Assembly: GCA_017625615.1 (NCBI GenBank)
Contig: JAGAKP010000007.1
Span: 1 to 47,933, forward strand
DNA from: Clostridia bacterium
GTDB taxonomy: Bacteria > Bacillota > Clostridia > Oscillospirales > CAG-382
Direction of reading: 5' to 3'
DNA: 47,933 nucleotides
The translations under genes were made by a program, and so were the position numbers. The notes under the pieces were generated by a model. The model did not search any database. It had not been told where the DNA came from and saw nothing but the letters and a program-made list of their open reading frames with translations. Below, one piece after another: positions 5,732 through 21,919 of the stretch. Every line of letters starts with the position of its first letter. Within the stretch, counting starts at the first letter, position 1.

Positions 5732-5760
5732 TTGACTTTTCTTTTAGTCGGTGGTAAACT
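5732..5760 (+). promoter_or_regulatory. Promoter of the FkbH-ACP-MBOAT-DHHW operon
   Basis: -35 TTGACT (5732-5737), 17-bp spacer, -10 TAAACT (5755-5760). A start at the in-frame GTG 5751 is excluded because it falls in this promoter. Confidence 0.7.
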
Positions 5761-5792
5761 GTAAAGGTAAAAATAAAATGGGAGGGACTGTA

Positions 5793-7520
5793 TTGAAAAC
5801 ACCCACCTTCGTGGAATTAAAAAAGAACCTTAAAAAGGATTTTTCTTCGCTTCCCGTCATCCGCTTGGGCATTATAGGAGATTGTGCTACTCAGCATATC
5901 GCCCTTTCTCTTCGCGGCTGGGGATACGAAAAAGGCATAAATTTTGATATTTTCGATTCCGATTATAACCAGATAGACGCACAGACAATGGACCCTGCGT
6001 CCGAGCTGTACGAATTTTCTCCCGCATATACCGCAGTTATAAACTGCACCGAAAAATTATATATGCGTTTTTGCGAAACTCCGCTGGATATGCGCTCTTC
6101 CTTTGCCGCTACCATTTGCGACAGTATGGTTTCCGTATGGAGCAGAATATCCGAAAACTGCCGTTCAAGGATAATTCAGTTTAATTTCCCCGTGTGGGAT
6201 GACCGTGTGTTCGGCGATTTCGGCGGTAAAACCACGGATTCCTTCGTGTTCCAGACGAGAAAATTAAATATGCTTCTTGCGGAAAAGGCAGGCGAGTATA
6301 AGAACGTATTTATCTGCGATATAGAGGGAATACAGAGCCGTGTCGGTGAAAAGGCACTGCGTGACAGTAAGATGTTCTGCATTGCAAAGATGCCCTTCCG
6401 TACGGATATTCTTCCTCTCGTTGCCCGCACCGTGACGGATACCGTCCTTGCAGCAGAGGGAAAAATTAAAAAATGCGTTGTTCTTGACCTTGATAACACC
6501 CTTTGGGGCGGCGTGGTCGGCGATGACGGTACCGACGGAATACAGATCGGCGAGCTTGGCTCGGGACACGCCTTCACACAGTTCCAGCATTGGCTCAAGG
6601 AGCTTAAAAACCGCGGTATAATCCTTTGCGTTTGCTCAAAGAATAACGAGGAAAACGCAAAAGATCCCTTTATAAACCACCCCGAAATGGTGCTCCGTCT
6701 TGAGGATATCTCCGTTTTCGTTGCCAACTGGGAGGATAAAGCTAGTAATATCCGCTATATCCGCGACGTGCTCAATATCGGTATGGACAGTATGGTGTTC
6801 CTTGACGATAACCCCTTTGAGCGTGAAGCGGTAAGAAGCCTCGTGCCCGAGATAACCGTTCCCGAATTACCCGAAAATCCCGAGGATTACGTGGATTATC
6901 TTCGTAACGAGGATCTCTTCGGTACTGCCTCCTATTCCAAGGAGGACCGTATGCGTACCGACCAGTACCGCGCCGAGGCAGAGCGTGTGTCGTTGCAGAG
7001 CAAGTGCAACGATTACGACGATTATCTTATGAGCCTTGAAATGGTTGCGGAGGCAAATCCCTTCGATGCATACCATTTTCCCCGTATTGCACAGCTTACA
7101 CAGCGCTCCAATCAGTTCAATCTCCGCACCGTAAGATATACGGAGCAGGAAATAGAGGATATCGCATCCGACGATAAATATATAACCATTTATTTCACCC
7201 TTAAGGATAAATTCGGCGACCACGGTCTTATCTCCGCCGTTATAATGGAAAAGCGGGAAGACGCTTTGTTTGTAAACACCTATCTTATGTCCTGCCGTGT
7301 CCTTAAGCGTGGTATGGAGGAGTTTATCATAAACACTATGGTGGAGACCGCCAAGAATAACGGATATAAAAAGGTTATCGGCGAATATCTTCCCACTGCC
7401 AAAAACGCAATGGTTGCGGGCATTTACGAAAAGCTCGGCTTTACCCGCGTAAACGATAATATCTTTACCGCAGAAGTCGAAAGCTTTGAATACAACAAAA
7501 CACATATTCGGAAAGGATAA
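5793..7520 (+). CDS. FkbH-like HAD-IIIC protein (ACP-loading enzyme)
   Basis: About 575 residues in three parts: an N-terminal GDSL-like domain (I-I-G-D-C-A-T-Q-H, residues 20-30), a HAD core with D-L-D-N-T-L-W-G-G-V-V-G-D-D-G (Asp232, Asp234) and F-L-D-D-N-P-F-E-R, and a C-terminal GNAT-like domain ending M-V-A-G-I-Y-E-K-L-G-F. Characterised FkbH proteins take the three-carbon unit of 1,3-bisphosphoglycerate, load it on an acyl carrier protein and dephosphorylate it to glyceryl-ACP. An ACP gene follows after 8 bp, then MBOAT and DHHW genes, so I infer it charges that ACP for export to a surface polymer. Start TTG 5793 is preferred: GGAGGG lies 6 nt upstream. ATG 5778 is an alternative. The actual acyl group is unproven. 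Confidence 0.85.
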   Translation: MKTPTFVELKKNLKKDFSSLPVIRLGIIGDCATQHIALSLRGWGYEKGINFDIFDSDYNQIDAQTMDPASELYEFSPAYTAVINCTEKLYMRFCETPLDMRSSFAATICDSMVSVWSRISENCRSRIIQFNFPVWDDRVFGDFGGKTTDSFVFQTRKLNMLLAEKAGEYKNVFICDIEGIQSRVGEKALRDSKMFCIAKMPFRTDILPLVARTVTDTVLAAEGKIKKCVVLDLDNTLWGGVVGDDGTDGIQIGELGSGHAFTQFQHWLKELKNRGIILCVCSKNNEENAKDPFINHPEMVLRLEDISVFVANWEDKASNIRYIRDVLNIGMDSMVFLDDNPFEREAVRSLVPEITVPELPENPEDYVDYLRNEDLFGTASYSKEDRMRTDQYRAEAERVSLQSKCNDYDDYLMSLEMVAEANPFDAYHFPRIAQLTQRSNQFNLRTVRYTEQEIEDIASDDKYITIYFTLKDKFGDHGLISAVIMEKREDALFVNTYLMSCRVLKRGMEEFIINTMVETAKNNGYKKVIGEYLPTAKNAMVAGIYEKLGFTRVNDNIFTAEVESFEYNKTHIRKG

Positions 7521-7528
7521 AAAACAAA

Positions 7529-7765
7529 ATGAATGAAATTTACGAAAGACTCAATAAAGTATTCGCAGACGTTTTTGATGAAGATATAACCGTTACCGCA
7601 GAAACCACCGCAGAGGATATCGAGGATTGGGATTCTCTTACCCATATCACTCTTATCTCCGCAATCGAGGACGAATTCCGTATGAAGTTCAGTATGAAGG
7701 AAGTCGTCGGTATGAACAACGTGGGCGAGCTTGCAGATATCGTTGCTTCCCGCAGAAAGAGGTAA
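7529..7765 (+). CDS. Acyl carrier protein
   Basis: A 78-residue acidic protein of normal ACP length. The phosphopantetheine site is D-S-L in W-D-S-L-T-H, with Ser36 as the predicted attachment residue. It lies 8 bp after the FkbH-like gene and 9 bp before the MBOAT gene, away from any fatty-acid synthesis gene. This context makes it a dedicated carrier handing an activated acyl group from the FkbH-like enzyme to the membrane acyltransferase, as DltC does between DltA and DltB. That it carries glycerate is inference. Confidence 0.92.
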   Translation: MNEIYERLNKVFADVFDEDITVTAETTAEDIEDWDSLTHITLISAIEDEFRMKFSMKEVVGMNNVGELADIVASRRKR

Positions 7766-7774
7766 TTACAGAAA

Positions 7775-9262
7775 ATGGTATTTTCCAGTCTGTTTTTCGT
7801 CTATATATTCCTGCCTTTATTGCTTATATTCTATTTTGCAATAAAGAAGGATGCTTGGCGCAGAGGCGTACTGCTGGTATTTTCTCTTGTTTTTTATGCT
7901 TGGGGCGAGCCGGTATATATTCTTCTGATGCTGTTTTCCGCATTGATCAATTACGTATTCGGCTTGCTTGTCGGTGCGGGAAAAACTCCCGCCGCAAGAA
8001 AAGCGGCTGTTGCGGGTGGAGTAGTGCTCAATCTTGCTATGCTGGGCGTGTTCAAGTACGCAGGCTTTGCGGTGGAGAGTCTTAACGCCGTTACCGGTCT
8101 TTCCATACCCGTTCCCGCCATTGTTCTTCCTTTGGGAATAAGCTTTTACACCTTCCAGGCAATGACCTACGTCATTGACGTATATCGGGAAAACTGTGCA
8201 CCGCAGAGATCATTTCCCAGACTTTTGCTGTTTATAACCTTCTTCCCTCAGCTTGTTGCGGGTCCCATCGTCCGTTATACGGATATTGAGGATCAGCTTG
8301 AAAACCGCAGAGTTACCGCAAAGCAGATAAACGACGGTCTTTACCGCTTTGCTATCGGTATGGGCAAAAAGGTAGTGCTTGCAAACACCTGCGCTTTGGC
8401 GGCGGATAACCTTTTTGCTTCCACCGCAGGCCCCACCGTGTTAAGCAGCTGGGGCGGTATACTCTTTTACGCAATGCAGATATACTTCGATTTTTCGGGC
8501 TATTCAGATATGGCAATAGGTCTTGGCAAAATGTTCGGCTTTACCTTCCCCGAAAACTTCGATTACCCTTATATCTCCAAAAACGTTACCGAATATTGGC
8601 GCCGCTGGCATATGACCTTGGGCGGATGGTTCAGAGATTATCTTTTCTACCCCGTAATGCGTTCTAAGCTTATATCAAAGCTTACCAAGGCGCTTAAAAA
8701 GAGCGGACATAAAACAGCCGCCAAAAACATTCCCACAATTATTGCTCTTACAGTCGTGTGGTTTTCCACAGGTCTGTGGCACGGCGCAAGCTGGAACTAC
8801 GTTCTGTGGGGTATTTATTACGGCGCGTGGCTTATACTGGAAAAGTTCGTGCTTGATAAGGCCTATAAGCGTATCCCCGCTTTGCTTTCAAACATAATTC
8901 AGCACGTTTCCTTTATTTTCATAACCCTTTTCGGTTTCGCAATTTTCTATAACGAGACGAATCTCTTTACAAAGCTCGGCCATTTCTTCGGTATCGGCAC
9001 CACGGGCTTTACCAACGTATACGCGGAATCCATGATATACGAAAACGGTGTTCTGCTTATCGTTGCCCTTATCTGCAGTACTCCTCTTGCAAAAATGCTT
9101 ATGGACCTTGTACGCAAAAAGCTTTATCCCAAAATGGGTGAGGAGACCGCCTATACCGTTGACCGTCTTATAAAGACCGCAGTTATCTTCGCACTGTTCG
9201 CCCTTTGCACCGTGCGTCTCGTTGGCGATTCTTATAATCCCTTCATTTACTTCAAATTTTAG
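7775..9262 (+). CDS. MBOAT membrane O-acyltransferase (AlgI/DltB-like)
   Basis: A 495-residue polytopic membrane protein with MBOAT landmarks: F-F-P-Q-L-V-A-G-P-I-V-R near residue 165, W-R-R-W-H-M-T-L-G-G-W-F-R-D-Y near 275-290, and the active-site T-G-L-W-H-G-A-S-W-N with His336. The length and motifs match AlgI/PatA/DltB-type enzymes, which pass acyl groups across the membrane to extracellular polysaccharide or teichoic acid. The donor is probably the ACP encoded just upstream, and the partner the DHHW protein encoded 17 bp downstream. The acceptor polymer is unknown; no glycan biosynthesis cluster lies in the window. Confidence 0.93.
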   Translation: MVFSSLFFVYIFLPLLLIFYFAIKKDAWRRGVLLVFSLVFYAWGEPVYILLMLFSALINYVFGLLVGAGKTPAARKAAVAGGVVLNLAMLGVFKYAGFAVESLNAVTGLSIPVPAIVLPLGISFYTFQAMTYVIDVYRENCAPQRSFPRLLLFITFFPQLVAGPIVRYTDIEDQLENRRVTAKQINDGLYRFAIGMGKKVVLANTCALAADNLFASTAGPTVLSSWGGILFYAMQIYFDFSGYSDMAIGLGKMFGFTFPENFDYPYISKNVTEYWRRWHMTLGGWFRDYLFYPVMRSKLISKLTKALKKSGHKTAAKNIPTIIALTVVWFSTGLWHGASWNYVLWGIYYGAWLILEKFVLDKAYKRIPALLSNIIQHVSFIFITLFGFAIFYNETNLFTKLGHFFGIGTTGFTNVYAESMIYENGVLLIVALICSTPLAKMLMDLVRKKLYPKMGEETAYTVDRLIKTAVIFALFALCTVRLVGDSYNPFIYFKF

Positions 9263-9279
9263 GAAAGGAAGAGCAAAGC

Positions 9280-10875
9280 ATGAAAAAGAACAAATTCATA
9301 GACGAGCTGGTGCTTTTCCTTTTCCTCGCCTTTTTTGGATCTCTGGCAATACTTAATCTTTGCCAGACGGAGCGTCCCACGGTTTCGGAAACGGAAAACC
9401 GCACCCTTGCCACTATGCCGGATTTCAAATGGGACACCTTCTGGAGCGGCGAATATTTTGCCGATATCGGCGATTTCGTGTCTGATACCTTCTTCGGAAG
9501 AGAGGCTATGGTAAGCGTTTCCAAAAAGATAGATACCTTAAAATCCCTTTCGCTTATTTACGAGCGTGAAGGAATGACGGTAATCATCGACCCCAATCCC
9601 GATCAGGGTAAGGAAGAAAGCGAAGATTTCAGCCTTCCTCCCTTGCCTGAGCTTTCGTTACCTCCCGAAGAATCCGAGGTGAGCGAGCCTGAGGACGTAA
9701 GCGGCGAAAAGCCCGTTACCCCCATTATCATCTCCGCAAACAACGCATCCTTCACCGCAGGCGCGACCTACCTTATCACCGCAACCGTCGGTGAGGGTTA
9801 CGAGGGACTTATGTGGTCCGTTTCAGGTGACAGCGGTATTACGGTTACAGATAATAAAGACGGCACCGCAACCGTCAAGGGCGATTCTGCAGGCAAAGCG
9901 ACGGTAACCGCATCCGTTTCCAAGGACGGTGAAAGCTTTACCGTTCAGTGCGAGATAACCGTTAACGCTATCGTTATCGATACTCCCACAAAGCCCGCGC
10001 CAGACTTTTTGCCCAGCGGACTTATAATCTATAACGGAGCCGCTTATTCACAGTCCTTCTTCGTTGCGGCAAACGCTCCCAAATACGCCGCCGTGTACGA
10101 GCGTTACGCACAGCTTTTCCCCGATACACGTATGAACGTGGTTATCGCACCTCTTGCTACTATCACCATTACCGATCCCGAAGTCAGCAAAAAGATCTCC
10201 GATCAGGGCAAAATACTTGATAATATGGAAGCGGCAATAGTCGGCGACGTAAACTTTGTAAACCTTAAAAACGTCTTCGTTGAACACGCCGAGGAATACC
10301 TCTTCTTCAAGAGCGACCACCACTGGACTCACAGAGGCGCCTATTACGCGTATTACGAGTTTATCAAGTCTGTCGGTATGGAGCCTACTCCCATCGAGGA
10401 CTTTGACGTAGAGATCATTACCGAAACCTACATCGGCTCTATGTACAATTATACGGGCGACGAGCGTGTCAAGACCTTCTACGATACCATCGAAGCATAT
10501 ATGCCCAACAAGGCGTGTACCATGACAATATTCCGCAATGACGGTACTTCAAGCACTCATAATTTCTGTATCAATACGGGAATCAAGGGCTATACAGCCT
10601 TCATTTCGGGCGACCATCCTTATATGGTAATAAACGTGCCCGAGAATCCTCAGGATAAATCCATTCTGGTCATCAAGGATTCCTACGGCAACGCATTCGT
10701 GCCTTATCTAACCGAGCATTACGGAAATGTCATCGTAATCGACCCCCGCCACGTAGATATGAATATCTACGATGAATTCAAGGATTACGGACTTACGGAC
10801 ATCGTATTTCTCGTAAATACCTCCTCCGGCAACGTCCCCGCGTGGTATAACTACCTTGTAGGACTTATAGATTAA
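9280..10875 (+). CDS. DHHW (AlgJ/AlgX-like) acylation partner with inserted Big domain
   Basis: 531 residues: one N-terminal membrane helix (about 5-27), an N-R-T-L-A-x-M-P motif and F-x-D-T-F-F-G-R segment typical of the DHHW family, a Pro/Glu/Ser linker (about 108-145), a bacterial Ig-like (Big_2-type) domain (about 147-240), then the SGNH-fold part with D-H-H-W (346-349) and K-D-S-Y-G (Ser468). In alginate systems AlgJ/AlgX perform or assist the last acetyl transfer outside the membrane. The linker and Ig-like insertion between N-terminal part and catalytic half is unusual and could set the distance from membrane to polymer. It ends the operon; a strong terminator follows. Confidence 0.87.
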   Translation: MKKNKFIDELVLFLFLAFFGSLAILNLCQTERPTVSETENRTLATMPDFKWDTFWSGEYFADIGDFVSDTFFGREAMVSVSKKIDTLKSLSLIYEREGMTVIIDPNPDQGKEESEDFSLPPLPELSLPPEESEVSEPEDVSGEKPVTPIIISANNASFTAGATYLITATVGEGYEGLMWSVSGDSGITVTDNKDGTATVKGDSAGKATVTASVSKDGESFTVQCEITVNAIVIDTPTKPAPDFLPSGLIIYNGAAYSQSFFVAANAPKYAAVYERYAQLFPDTRMNVVIAPLATITITDPEVSKKISDQGKILDNMEAAIVGDVNFVNLKNVFVEHAEEYLFFKSDHHWTHRGAYYAYYEFIKSVGMEPTPIEDFDVEIITETYIGSMYNYTGDERVKTFYDTIEAYMPNKACTMTIFRNDGTSSTHNFCINTGIKGYTAFISGDHPYMVINVPENPQDKSILVIKDSYGNAFVPYLTEHYGNVIVIDPRHVDMNIYDEFKDYGLTDIVFLVNTSSGNVPAWYNYLVGLID

Positions 10876-10880
10876 AGCAA

Positions 10881-10918
10881 AAAAACAGTAGTTGCGTTAA
10901 AAACAACTACTGTTTTTT
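10881..10918. terminator. Strong, probably bidirectional terminator
   Basis: Perfect 14-bp stem (10881-10894 with 10904-10917), 9-nt loop, A-run on one side and T-run on the other. It separates the convergent MBOAT operon and uppP-ftsK operon. Confidence 0.9.
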
Positions 10919-10919
10919 A

Positions 10920-10959
10920 TCGGGGTCTCCGAGAAGCCGTAAGGCTTCTTGGGGTGATT
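10920..10959 (+). repeat. 40-bp terminator-like repeat, copy 3
   Basis: Matches copies 1 and 2 except for one C-to-T change (10928). That change keeps the long stem through a G-T wobble. A run of seven T follows. It abuts the preceding terminator, so the site carries two terminator-like hairpins in a row. Confidence 0.88.
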
Positions 10960-16944: not shown

Positions 16945-16972
16945 ATATATTAGTTTTTTGGTGTTCTCTCAA

Positions 16973-19900
16973 ATGATCAAGCGCTTTTTATCCTTAATAC
17001 TTGTGTTTACGTTCTTGCTCGCCGCACTTCCCGCGGGGGGCTTGGACGTTTTTGCTTTTTTTGAGGAAAACACCGATGAAAGCGTAAATATTTCCCGCTA
17101 TATCCTTACATTCCGCGAGGATGCGGACGTTAAAACCCTTCTTTCGGGTTATGAATACAGACCTCTTTCGGCGGAGAATAGGGTATATCTCGTTACCGCC
17201 GAGGACGTTTCTCCGTTATCGGCTTACTGCATCTCCGCAGAGCGTGATACGTCCCGCGTTTTACTCGACGTGAAGACCGAAAACGCCTATGATTTTTGCG
17301 GTATTCCCGTTTCCCGCGTAATGGCAGACGGCGGCAAGGGAGTTATCGTTGCAGTTCTCGACACGGGTGTTGACAGAGAGCACGAGTGCTTCAAGGATAC
17401 CCATATTCTCGAAGGCTATGACTCAACCGCCGATACCGCAGGCGTATACGGCGACGAGGACGGACACGGCACCGCCGTAACCGGTATTATCGCCGCATCA
17501 AACGGCATTCTCGGTGTTGCACCCGAAGTAAGCGTTTATCCCGTAAAGGTTTCCGATGGAAGTGGAACCGTGTATTCCTCCCATCTGGTGGCAGGAATAT
17601 ACAACGCTGCCGATAACGGCGCAGATATTATAAATATTTCTCTCGGCGGATATTCTTATTCCGTAAGCGAACAGCAAGCGGTCAACTACGCTCTTTCAAA
17701 GGGATGTATCATTATTGCCGCTGCAGGCAACGACGGCGCAAACGCCGCTCTTGCAGGCAAATATTTTTATCCCGCATCCTATGACGGTGTTATTTCCGTC
17801 GCCTCCGTTGACCCCGACGGCTCGCCGAGCCTTTTTTCGCAGTACAACGATAAGATAGATATTGCAGCCCCCGGCAGAGATATTGCCGTCGGTGTTGCGG
17901 GAAGTAAAGATCAATACGGCACCGAATCGGGTACCAGCTTTTCCGCCGCCTTGGTAAGCGGAATTTCCGCCCTTGCTTGCGCTGCTTCGGACGGGCTTGA
18001 CGGAACACAGCTTTCGTACCTCATCATTTCCGCCTTGGGCAGTGATCATTCGGTTTACACGGGCTACGGAATTGCCGATGCCGAAAAAATCGTATCTGCC
18101 GCCGCAGATCCTATCATAACGGGAGTTTACGACGGCGCCGTCCTTTCGTCTCCCCCCGTTATCACCTTTAATAAGGGCATCGCAAGACTCGACGGAAAGC
18201 CCTTCCTTTCGGGAGGCACCGTTACGGAAGGGGGCACCCACGTCCTTTCCGTCACCTATAAGGACAATACCAAAACCATAAGCTTTACCGTTTCCGACGA
18301 AAAGCTTGAATATTCCGTAAATGCCGACAGCATCACCTTTTCCTTCGGCTTCGGTTACCTTGACGGTATGCCGTATATTTCAGGCTCCCAAATATCCGAC
18401 GGCGTACACAAGTTCCTTCTTCGCGGCGAATATACTTCCGTCAGCGCAACCGTAAATATAGGCGCAGAGGGATATCTTACAGGCGTTGAAAACGGCACAG
18501 TTTATTCTCACGCCGTATCCTTGCGCGGCTACGGTAACGGCATCTTTTCCGTTAACGGAGTTCCCTTTACGGGCATAAAGGTCCTTTCCGACGGCGATTA
18601 TACCGCCACCGTAACAGACCAAAACGGCGCGGTTACCTATTCCGCATCCTTTACCGTAAAGACCGCCCGTAAGGTGCATAGCGCTATTGCAGGCAGTCTT
18701 ATCCACGCTGACAATGAAAACGGTTACCTCTTGGCAACCGATTCCAATACGGGCATCCGCGTTTATAATTCAGAAAACCTATCTGCTCCGCTCCGCACCT
18801 TGCGTCTTTCCGAAAGGATCGTCGCTTTTGAGCAGGACGGAGAAGCGCTTTATATTATTACCGAAAACGCCGTCTATTCCGTACCTCGTGCTTCCATGAA
18901 CGGCGCAGACGCTCCCACCCTCACTCCAATAGAGGGATACGTTCCCTTCGGCGGTTACAGTATCAGGCAAAACCGCCTTTATTTTGAGGATAACCTCATT
19001 CTTTCCACCCCCTACGGAAATATTATTTCCGTGGAAGGGGATAGGGTATTTACCTCTTACGGCATCGTCAGCCTTACCGACGGAAGCCTTTTGTCGGTCT
19101 TCTGCGATGAATTGATCTCCGTTTCGCAATCCTACGCCCTATTCAGGAATACAGGTCTCGTTGAATTTACGGATATATCGGATATTTCCGCACCTGCGGA
19201 TAAGTCCGCATTCGGAAGCGTAAACAACTATAATAAATATACTCTTTCCGCTTATACGGGGCTGAACCCCCAACAGACCTCGTTTGATTCCTACAGCGGA
19301 AAAATATATATTCTCTCCGAGGGCACCGTGTATTTTACGGATAACGCCTTTATAACCTCGGGTGAGATACCCTTGAGATTCGTTCCCCTTTATATTACCG
19401 CCTCCTTTGGCGAGCTTTACGTATTTTTTGAAGACGGATATTGCAAAATAGATTCCTACACCCTTGAGCAGACCTATTTTTACGGGTTATCCTGTCCCGA
19501 AAAGGCTGTTTGCGGTGACGGATTTATCGTAGCCTCTTACGGAAACCGTCTTGCAATTATCGTTGACGGAACCGTCACCTACGAAGAAGAAATGCCCGTT
19601 TCCGATATCGCCGTATCTTTGGATAATATATTCGTTGCAAACTCGCAGGGAATAGGCGTTTTCGCCGCTGACGGCAGCTTTACAGGTGTAATTCCCGCAG
19701 GAGATACGAAAGCGCTGTATACCGACGGCGTGTACGTCGCCTCCCGCGATACGGTATATCTCGCCTCCGATGGAAGCGTAGTTACCCGTATACCCGCAAA
19801 CATCACTGCCATTACGAAAGGACTCGTCTTTACCGATAAGGGCGTGTATTCACCCTACGGAAAGCTTCTTTCCGATTTTGTGTATGAAGGTCTTTTTGCC

Positions 19901-21919
19901 GACGGATACTGTATCACTGCGGAAAAGGGACACCTTACCGTACACGGCGGCGAGGATACGGGAGTACTTCCCACTGTAGTCGGCGGGGAAGGAGTCAACG
20001 ATATTTACGCGGAAATATCCACCGATATCGGCGTTCTGTTTGTTGACGGCAAGCTGTTCGAGGGCGGCAGATACCTTCTCGGCGGCGATCATCGTTTGGA
20101 GTGCGTCACCCCATTTGGAATAATTACCTCGTCCCAATTTTCCGTGATCCCCGCGCTTGGCGGAATTTCCGTTTCGGGCGGCGCCAAGGAAATGAACCCG
20201 GGCGAGACACAGTATATCCTCGTTGAATATCTGCCCTACGGCGCTTCTGCCGTTGACGCGGAGTTTTCCGTAACGGGAGATAGCGTTACCGTGGACCGGA
20301 ACGGTCTTATCACCGCAGTTTCGGAGGGCGTTTCGGTTATAACCGTCACCGCAGGCGGATTTACCGCTTCGGTAACCGTCACCGTCACTCGGCTTGAGAT
20401 CAGCTTTACCCATCCCGATTTTCTCTTTGATGCGGACACCCGTACCTTCCGTATTCCCGCAGGCACCACTGCCGAAAGGTTTGGTGAGGTCATAGCTGCC
20501 GAAGGAAAGTATTACCGTATCGTCTCTGAGGACGGAACGGATATCACTCCCGAAAAGCTTATCAAAACGGGCTGTGTCTTCAATTTCCTTTCCGATACGG
20601 GCTCGGTGATCGCCACCGTCACTGCAGTGGTCATGGGCGATACCGACAAGGACGGCATGCTTTCCGCCTTGGATACCCGCATTCTTGAAAAAGGCATAAA
20701 TGGCGAAGATATCGGCGTTCATACCGCTTATGCAGGCGACGTGGACGGAGACGGCGAGCTTACCGAAGCAGATTCGGAAAAGCTTCTGTCTATGATAGAC
20801 CTGTTCACCCGTTCCGCTTCTCTTGAAAAAAGCGAATACACAGTAACCGCTTCCGTTCCCGCAACGGTCCACCCCGCAGGCGAGTTTGCGGTTATTATGT
20901 ACGTTGACCGCGGAGTGGGTATCGATTCGGTAATTGGAAATCTCGCATACGACACCGAAATATTCGAGCTTCTTTACGTCGCGGGTGTGAACTACAGCCT
21001 CTCTTATCAGGATAACGACGGCGTTATTACCTTCGCCGCTTATGATGAGAATGGCACACCATCTGACAGAGTTATAAAAACCTTCGGAACTGCAATGTTC
21101 CGCGTAAAGGAAAACGCACCACTTAAAAATGCGGAATTCCTGCTTACGGGATGTGCGGTCACCGCTGTCGGGAATATCTACTCCTCCGAAGAAAGCGTAA
21201 AGGCGACCTCCGTTTCAAAGCGAAGCGCAAACGAATTTACTATAAGGATAAGCAACGCGGAGTTTTTCGTGTTCAATCCTTCAATACGGAATTACTACGT
21301 TGAGCTTCCCTATAACGCCGTGGCAGTGGATATCGAGCTTGATTATCCCGAGGGCGGCGTGGTGTACTGCTCGGATACACTTATCCCCGAAAGCGACGAG
21401 CTTACCGTGACCGTGCGTTATACCTCGCCTCAGGGCGTTTCCACCAATTACAAGATACACGTTACCCGTGCCGGCGCAGAGACCTTAAATAGCGATCCGC
21501 TGCTGGAATCCATTACCTCGTCCGTTGGCACGCTGAATCCCCTTTTCACTGCGGAAAGGCTTACCTATAAGCTTAGTATTCCCTTCGATTCTCCCGATCC
21601 TACCTTTACCTGTATCCCGAGAAACGAGAATACCGTCGTTACCGTCCGGATGCCCGAGTCCTTCCCCGTGGGAAGCACCGTCGTTGAGTTTCACTGCGTC
21701 GCCCAAGACGGCACTGAGGCGAAATACGTTATTACCGTAGTGAGAGAAAAGAATAGCGAGGAATCTGACACGAGCGATAACAGCGAGGCTGACGATAACA
21801 CGAGCGGCGGAAAATGGATAATAGCAGTCACAGTATCCGTCACTGCGGTTGCACTTGCCGCAATAATATATTACCTTATAAACCGAAAGGGAAAGAATAA
21901 TGTCAAAGAAATCAAGTAA
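16973..21919 (+). CDS. Giant membrane-tethered subtilisin-like protease with dockerin/cohesin-like modules
   Basis: 1,648 residues. Signal peptide (about 1-28); peptidase S8 domain with catalytic Asp130 (V-L-D-T-G-V), His165 (G-H-G-T-A) and Ser322 (G-T-S-F-S-A); long beta-rich repeats that may form a propeller (about 560-1000); a Big_2-type domain (about 1060-1140); a dockerin-like pair of calcium loops (G-D-T-D-K-D-G-M and G-D-V-D-G-D-G-E, about 1222-1285); a cohesin-like sandwich (about 1290-1425); cadherin-like sandwiches (about 1425-1595); a Ser/Glu linker, a membrane helix and a basic tail. It probably processes surface proteins outside the membrane. The ATG at 16973 starts the signal peptide, but no clear ribosome binding site is seen. 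A PrsA-like gene overlaps its end by 20 bp. Confidence 0.88.
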   Translation: MIKRFLSLILVFTFLLAALPAGGLDVFAFFEENTDESVNISRYILTFREDADVKTLLSGYEYRPLSAENRVYLVTAEDVSPLSAYCISAERDTSRVLLDVKTENAYDFCGIPVSRVMADGGKGVIVAVLDTGVDREHECFKDTHILEGYDSTADTAGVYGDEDGHGTAVTGIIAASNGILGVAPEVSVYPVKVSDGSGTVYSSHLVAGIYNAADNGADIINISLGGYSYSVSEQQAVNYALSKGCIIIAAAGNDGANAALAGKYFYPASYDGVISVASVDPDGSPSLFSQYNDKIDIAAPGRDIAVGVAGSKDQYGTESGTSFSAALVSGISALACAASDGLDGTQLSYLIISALGSDHSVYTGYGIADAEKIVSAAADPIITGVYDGAVLSSPPVITFNKGIARLDGKPFLSGGTVTEGGTHVLSVTYKDNTKTISFTVSDEKLEYSVNADSITFSFGFGYLDGMPYISGSQISDGVHKFLLRGEYTSVSATVNIGAEGYLTGVENGTVYSHAVSLRGYGNGIFSVNGVPFTGIKVLSDGDYTATVTDQNGAVTYSASFTVKTARKVHSAIAGSLIHADNENGYLLATDSNTGIRVYNSENLSAPLRTLRLSERIVAFEQDGEALYIITENAVYSVPRASMNGADAPTLTPIEGYVPFGGYSIRQNRLYFEDNLILSTPYGNIISVEGDRVFTSYGIVSLTDGSLLSVFCDELISVSQSYALFRNTGLVEFTDISDISAPADKSAFGSVNNYNKYTLSAYTGLNPQQTSFDSYSGKIYILSEGTVYFTDNAFITSGEIPLRFVPLYITASFGELYVFFEDGYCKIDSYTLEQTYFYGLSCPEKAVCGDGFIVASYGNRLAIIVDGTVTYEEEMPVSDIAVSLDNIFVANSQGIGVFAADGSFTGVIPAGDTKALYTDGVYVASRDTVYLASDGSVVTRIPANITAITKGLVFTDKGVYSPYGKLLSDFVYEGLFADGYCITAEKGHLTVHGGEDTGVLPTVVGGEGVNDIYAEISTDIGVLFVDGKLFEGGRYLLGGDHRLECVTPFGIITSSQFSVIPALGGISVSGGAKEMNPGETQYILVEYLPYGASAVDAEFSVTGDSVTVDRNGLITAVSEGVSVITVTAGGFTASVTVTVTRLEISFTHPDFLFDADTRTFRIPAGTTAERFGEVIAAEGKYYRIVSEDGTDITPEKLIKTGCVFNFLSDTGSVIATVTAVVMGDTDKDGMLSALDTRILEKGINGEDIGVHTAYAGDVDGDGELTEADSEKLLSMIDLFTRSASLEKSEYTVTASVPATVHPAGEFAVIMYVDRGVGIDSVIGNLAYDTEIFELLYVAGVNYSLSYQDNDGVITFAAYDENGTPSDRVIKTFGTAMFRVKENAPLKNAEFLLTGCAVTAVGNIYSSEESVKATSVSKRSANEFTIRISNAEFFVFNPSIRNYYVELPYNAVAVDIELDYPEGGVVYCSDTLIPESDELTVTVRYTSPQGVSTNYKIHVTRAGAETLNSDPLLESITSSVGTLNPLFTAERLTYKLSIPFDSPDPTFTCIPRNENTVVTVRMPESFPVGSTVVEFHCVAQDGTEAKYVITVVREKNSEESDTSDNSEADDNTSGGKWIIAVTVSVTAVALAAIIYYLINRKGKNNVKEIK

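Follow-up and report, generated by a model that had tools for sequence, protein, structure and literature searches.

Organization and components of the operon

We describe an operon of four tandem plus-strand genes located in a 47,933-nucleotide stretch of contig JAGAKP010000007.1 (assembly GCA_017625615.1; hereafter, the window) from a gut-dwelling Clostridia bacterium of the GTDB lineage Oscillospirales; CAG-382. Separated by gaps of 8, 9, and 17 bp, the genes encode an FkbH-family loader, an acyl carrier protein (ACP), a membrane-bound O-acyltransferase (MBOAT), and a DHHW-family SGNH outer transferase (Table 1). An earlier note, made from the sequence alone, had read these four adjacent open reading frames (ORFs) as a single Dlt-like acylation module built from a loader, a carrier protein, a membrane O-acyltransferase, and an SGNH-type outer partner. 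The order and spacing it gave are exact, the residues it named (Asp232 and Asp234 in FkbH, Ser36 in the ACP, His336 in the MBOAT, and DHHW 346-349 and Ser468 in the outer partner) are all found where it placed them, and the module as such is supported by our comparisons.

Table 1. Features of the operon in window coordinates. Profile cut-offs (Pfam/NCBIfam) are 146.65 bits for FkbH TIGR01686, 20.8 for PP-binding, 27 for MBOAT, and 25 for DHHW.
Feature	Coordinates	Strand	Basis
Possible promoter TTGACT-17-TAAACT	5732..5760	+	9/12 consensus matches, no excess over chance
FkbH-family loader, 575 aa	5793..7520	+	TIGR01686 303 bits, PF21211 (FkbH_N) 2e-60
Acyl carrier protein, 78 aa, phosphopantetheine site Ser36	7529..7765	+	PF00550 24.1 bits, DWDSL motif
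MBOAT, 495 aa; His279, His336, C-terminal FIYFKF with Tyr492	7775..9262	+	PF03062 67.7 bits
FIYFKF codons, final six MBOAT residues (acyl-shuttle motif, Tyr492)	9242..9259	+	Sequence; motif per PMC12148441
DHHW-family SGNH outer transferase, 531 aa	9280..10875	+	PF14286 165.5 bits, PF02368
Terminator-like palindrome with T-run AAAACAGTAGTTG...CAACTACTGTTTT	~10880..10918	+	13-bp inverted repeat readable in sequence

The loader scores above the curated TIGR01686 cut-off and comprises an SGNH-like-fold N domain (residues 22-223), a HAD phosphatase domain (220-380), and a GNAT-like C domain (417-565). Its AlphaFold2 model (pLDDT [predicted local distance difference test] 90.2) is matched by PDB 3slr over residues 3-381 (Z 35), and, compared with the PDB, the three domains resemble SGNH/GDSL esterases (Z ~15), MDP-1-type HAD phosphatases (Z ~15), and GNAT acyltransferases (Z ~16), respectively. 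The HAD domain carries Asp232, Asp234, Asp338, and Asp339, and the GNAT-like domain carries Ser500-Cys501-Arg502. We compared these residues with those of FkbHs from tetronate-type clusters, where the gene adjoins FabH and ACP genes (L121, L157, L158), and of one from a methoxymalonate operon (L159), and found Asp232, Asp234, Ser282, Asp338, Asp339, Gln441, Asn443, Ser500, Cys501, and Arg502 to be common to all. The retention of these HAD and GNAT-like residues, including Cys501, supports glyceryl-ACP as the product, and together with the known FkbH pathways (PMC7489565) it lends the glyceryl chemistry indirect support. Cys501 may be the acyl-carrying residue, since it is present in all compared FkbHs and Cys281 is not. 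The latter (in CSKN) is 99% kept in close relatives but replaced by Val, Ser, Leu, or Ala in the tetronate and methoxymalonate FkbHs, and was rejected for this role.

Two further observations concern FkbH itself. In the N-terminal SGNH/GDSL-like domain (window positions 5793-6460), Cys31 stands where the GDS(L) motif has its serine, and short FkbHs lack this domain. In addition, another conserved FkbH cassette is present at loci L045, L048, L051, L055, and L072, in which FkbH-ACP is followed by glycine-cleavage-H-like, dihydrolipoamide-dehydrogenase-like, and lipoate-ligase-like genes.

In the ACP, Ser36 is found within DWDSLTHI, and the protein shows a general PP-binding match only; the window genome encodes a single phosphopantetheinyl transferase. 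The MBOAT, whose His336 lies in LWHGASW, has DltB as its nearest solved relative by both sequence and fold (AlphaFold2 model pLDDT 92.5). Its C-terminal FIYFKF corresponds to an acyl-shuttle hexapeptide, FxYxxF, that is also present in DltX and PatA; the tyrosine of the PatA C-terminal motif becomes acylated, and DltX bears the same motif (PMC12148441). Tyr492 and His336 are invariant across 52 aligned MBOATs, and 56 of 63 MBOATs from related loci end in FxYxxF, with at least 4 of the other 7 appearing truncated or shifted. A second MBOAT paralogue in the same genome (C24; L083:7397-8866, minus strand) is broken by an in-frame TAA; its end still reads FLYFRF, and the adjoining DHHW gene is intact.

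Hydropathy and motif positions give the outer partner one N-terminal membrane helix, a Big_2 domain (residues 145-217) that is absent from the earlier note, DHHW at 346-349, Ser468 (in KDSYGNA), and DPR at 488-490. It far exceeds the PF14286 cut-off, contains both DHHW block V and DxR block II (D488-P-R490-H), and has the catalytic Ser, Asp, and His of an SGNH-type partner. The nearest solved relatives are Eubacterium siraeum PDB 4nzk (1.6e-24) and Bacillus cereus PatB1 (5e-13), the latter a secondary-wall-polymer O-acetyltransferase, and the DHHW relatives of known function are O-acetyltransferases (PMC9487903). Three other DHHW genes of the window genome have no MBOAT nearby, namely, C34 (L084:5292-6485, minus strand), C66 (L086:4936-6243, minus strand), and C25 (L085:1349-2428, plus strand); they lie near CotH kinase and DUF4434 genes, and the product of one is lipoprotein-like and shares 70% identity with the DHHW protein of the operon. 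Such solo DHHW proteins could act as extra outer transferases sharing one MBOAT.

We take TTG 5793, behind GGGAGGG, as the FkbH start because the numbering of Asp232 and Asp234 fits it; the same ORF is open from GTG 5751. The single promoter claimed earlier remains unproven, as promoter-type sites (10 found versus 10.6 expected in shuffled sequence) put the candidate at 5732-5760 no better than chance. The claimed terminator, a T-rich palindrome, is convincing by eye, and a second stem-loop is called at 10927-10954. The operon is preceded by a PdaA-like deacetylase gene, and the opposite strand carries an FtsK gene and a short ORF without a match; there is therefore no polymer gene cluster around it. 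Elsewhere in the window (16958-21919), we observe a 1,653-aa subtilase with dockerin and Big_2 domains.

Conservation and origin of the gene set

The four genes form a unit and not a chance cluster. Within the genus, all complete relatives (L002, L003, L041, L185, and L186, representing three genomes besides the window genome; L004 is a fragment), with FkbH identities of 85 to 87%, keep FkbH-ACP-MBOAT-DHHW. Elsewhere in the family, 23 of 56 sampled genomes have an FkbH, mostly 36 to 39% identical to the window FkbH. There, the order MBOAT-DHHW(-DHHW)-FkbH-ACP on one strand is seen in 14 of the 15 loci with full flanks. The set thus persists where the genes are rearranged and where FkbH has been replaced or has diverged deeply. 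The situation named earlier as contrary to a joint function, with FkbH rarely beside the ACP-MBOAT-DHHW genes, is hence not what the family displays.

Among the 80 nearest FkbH loci, an ACP lies within 1.2 kb in 67 and a same-strand MBOAT within 6 kb in 59, and the MBOAT-bearing loci come from Bacillota, Bacteroidota, Bdellovibrionota, and further groups. We also drew 291 genomes evenly across the class, 35 of which had an FkbH above the cut-off. Of 26 stand-alone long-form FkbH loci from this draw, 20 contained an ACP and 12 a same-strand MBOAT within 6 kb, whereas an MBOAT was present at 1 of 8 short-form loci. The chance expectation for FkbH-MBOAT adjacency, assuming ~3 MBOATs per 2-Mb genome, is ~0.2 of 26. 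Across the wider FkbH loci the outer partner varies, being DHHW, AlgX-like, GDSL/DUF459-like, or of a family without a Pfam match. We also observe ACP-FkbH-MBOAT on a Rhodobacteraceae plasmid, and MBOAT, ACP, and FkbH close together on pSymB of Sinorhizobium meliloti, both with a VOC gene. A phage record from gut (MT835480.1, marked “UNVERIFIED”; L198:6498-10969) ends in DHHW-DHHW-FkbH-ACP, an operon of the family type, and this part is probably bacterial DNA or prophage flank.

The components differ in kinship. The FkbH of the genus shares 58 to 60% identity with other Clostridia lineages and only 36 to 39% with its own family. A supported set (96) unites the window MBOAT with MBOATs of the family, a single paralogue from its own genome, and other MBOATs with DHHW-type neighbors, and the closest relative of the window DHHW protein outside the genus operon is the 70% identical solo paralogue of the same genome. 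The simplest reading of these sequence relationships is that a loader cassette may have joined a resident transfer pair. Horizontal transfer of the whole operon was also considered and is not supported. The closest FkbHs (60%) lie outside the family, but the MBOAT groups with genes of the family and of its own genome in a DHHW-type clade; the differing kinship of FkbH and MBOAT makes a modular origin more likely.

Proposed pathway and competing explanations

We propose, with a probability of roughly 0.6, that the operon encodes a carrier-protein-fed surface acylation system with the following loading and transfer steps. AcpS would place phosphopantetheine on Ser36 of the ACP. FkbH would receive a phosphoglyceryl group from 1,3-bisphosphoglycerate, with Cys501 as the probable attachment site, its HAD domain (Asp232/Asp234) would strip the 3-phosphate, and the glyceryl group would then pass to the ACP. 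By means of His336, the MBOAT would take over the ACP-bound acyl group and place it on Tyr492 in its C-terminal FIYFKF shuttle, which would present it outside. There, Ser468 of the membrane-anchored DHHW protein would accept it from the tyrosine and esterify a hydroxyl of a cell-surface polymer.

The acid is most likely a three-carbon one derived from a sugar-breakdown intermediate, and probably glycerate. We infer a glyceryl group in an operon that has no acyl-remodeling gene of its own, and the absence of such genes from the genus and family loci as well favors plain glycerate here. That the MBOAT receives the group from the ACP is suggested by the linkage of the genes and by ligase operons of parallel layout (see below), and a polymer is the presumed acceptor. 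The operon holds no polymer-making gene, and the PF04464 polymerase is absent from the window genome, which encodes one sulfatase-type LtaS-like protein (689 aa, no NCBIfam match) and contains LCP genes.

Several observations weigh against this proposal. Of the class-wide long-form FkbHs, 14 of 26 have no MBOAT nearby, and other FkbHs reside in polyketide-type clusters. The window genome also encodes MBOAT-DHHW pairs without FkbH or ACP (C49 and C24) that lie near the window MBOAT in the tree, so that MBOAT type alone is no proof of carrier-protein use. Finally, a MaoC dehydratase gene is present in 23 of 59 MBOAT-bearing relatives, most with an SDR gene, and others have a glyoxalase/epimerase-like gene. 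Plain glyceryl is therefore unlikely everywhere, and some members probably transfer a remodeled acid.

These last genes bear directly on an alternative in which the machine is the same and the acid another, the FkbH-loaded three-carbon unit being reduced, dehydrated, epimerized, or methylated by enzymes encoded elsewhere, to give, e.g., a lactyl or hydroxypropionyl group. Their position beside FkbH-ACP-MBOAT in many relatives speaks for it, as does the classic FkbH pathway, in which glyceryl-ACP is oxidized and methylated (PMC7489565); given that the window operon, the complete genus loci, and the full-flank family loci have none of them, we consider it unlikely here. It is rather improbable that MBOAT and DHHW instead O-acetylate a wall polymer from acetyl-CoA, like PatA1/PatB1 of B. 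cereus, with FkbH-ACP feeding something else or being a passenger. The acetyltransferase function of known DHHW relatives, the ACP-free paralogue pairs of the same genome, and the different closest relatives of FkbH and MBOAT are all consistent with acetylation. However, within one family FkbH-ACP is tied to MBOAT-DHHW in two gene orders and with diverged FkbHs, elsewhere it is tied to MBOATs with other SGNH types, and in parallel operons a ligase-ACP pair takes the same place.

Since characterized FkbHs belong to polyketide, tetronate, or nonribosomal peptide synthetase pathways (PMC7489565, PMC13122637), a small secreted metabolite with a glycerate unit, rather than a modified surface polymer, might also be the product. 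We regard this as very unlikely, as synthase, condensation, and FabH genes are absent from the operon, and what the genus and family loci retain instead is a membrane-anchored outer SGNH partner. Least credible is a Dlt operon with an odd loader that D-alanylates lipoteichoic acid (LTA). The gene plan resembles DltA-C-B-D, and in fold the MBOAT comes nearest to DltB. However, the operon contains no DltA, and the best match in the window genome (93% complete) reaches 65.8 bits versus a cut-off of 559.85, compared with 260 to 565 bits for full-length DltA-like ligases from other genomes of the class. The gaps of 8 to 17 bp leave no room within the operon for a DltX microprotein, the shuttle motif sitting on the MBOAT; the outer partner matches PF14286, a family known from O-acetylation of secondary wall polymers and not from D-alanylation, and does not match the DltD family PF04914; and the MBOAT scores 176.3 bits with the DltB equivalog, far below the cut-off of 375. 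Moreover, adenylation of amino acids is not an activity known for HAD/GNAT loaders. The DltB-specific score was also considered as a sign of ACP use and rejected, because an own-genome MBOAT without ACP scores nearly as high (155.7).

Relation to known acylation systems

The earlier comparison with Dlt thus holds for the use of a carrier protein, which is encoded in the operon, and not for the operon as a whole: the system works in a Dlt-like manner in this respect, yet it is not a Dlt operon. With the Dlt pathway (DltA-DltC-DltB-DltD-DltX) it shares a carrier-bound acyl group, the catalytic histidine of the MBOAT, the FxYxxF tyrosine shuttle, an outer transferase of SGNH fold, and the arrangement in one operon. 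It differs in having FkbH for DltA, an MBOAT-fused shuttle for DltX, DHHW for DltD, and probably glycerate for D-alanine. The PatA-PatB systems of Neisseria gonorrhoeae and Campylobacter jejuni and PatA1-PatB1 of B. cereus likewise pair an MBOAT with an SGNH partner, with the C-terminal FxYxxF tyrosine fused to the MBOAT (shown for C. jejuni PatA) and B. cereus PatB1 in the same DHHW family as the outer partner here; unlike the present operon, PatA takes acetyl from acetyl-CoA without carrier protein or loader. MBOAT/SGNH pathways other than Dlt are stated to lack a carrier protein (PMC12148441), a rule that the operons described here do not fit. New here is the combination of a carrier protein, a Dlt trait, with an MBOAT-fused shuttle, a PatA trait.

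A parallel is provided by operons of the same order and class (L188-L197) that encode a DltA-like adenylating ligase, ACP, MBOAT, and SGNH protein, with MBOATs ending in [FP]IYxxF and no separate DltX seen. They share the layout, the carrier-fed MBOAT with fused shuttle, and the SGNH partner, and differ in the adenylating ligase as loader, in the SGNH family, and in MBOATs only 33 to 39% identical to that of the window. As a ligase occupies the FkbH slot of the same layout, the loader looks exchangeable. Mutual exclusion of FkbH and DltA-like loaders, hinted at in the order, was rejected, since genomes G128 and G196 carry both.

On balance, we lean toward a widespread, undescribed surface-acylation architecture in which a fused-shuttle MBOAT-SGNH pair is fed by an exchangeable cassette of loader and carrier, with the FkbH version turning glycolytic 1,3-bisphosphoglycerate into surface glycerate esters (or derived acids) in Bacillota, Bacteroidota, Pseudomonadota, and others. 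If so, a high-energy glycolytic intermediate would be spent directly on surface decoration, tying wall chemistry to glycolytic flux, and Dlt would no longer be the sole carrier-protein user among MBOAT-SGNH pathways, as the published rule has it. Loaders would be interchangeable modules, there would be a candidate route to glycerate esters already known, for instance on gellan, and common gut Clostridia would gain a new surface feature.

The FkbH glycerate-utilization (tetronate) and methoxymalonyl-ACP pathways resemble this operon in the stand-alone ACP adjoining FkbH and in identical HAD- and GNAT-domain residues. In the known cases, the substrate is 1,3-bisphosphoglycerate. The glyceryl-ACP of those pathways enters polyketides, whereas in this operon MBOAT and SGNH genes come after FkbH and ACP. 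Among the open-license papers searched, we found none on FkbH in surface acylation or on FkbH with MBOAT in surface chemistry; the two are described together for cyanobacterial natural products, each acting on different groups. Likewise, no gene for the glyceryl ester of gellan or welan was found in the literature searched. The earlier note knew of no description, for this lineage, of surface decoration with glycerate or a related three-carbon acid. The route would be new, but the ester chemistry is known, as L-glyceryl esters occur on gellan and welan of sphingomonads (PMC9104527), likewise bacterial surface polysaccharides bearing a glycerate ester. LTA of Clostridioides difficile carries glyceric acid (PMC10642750), and together these examples make glycerate chemistry plausible on bacterial surfaces.

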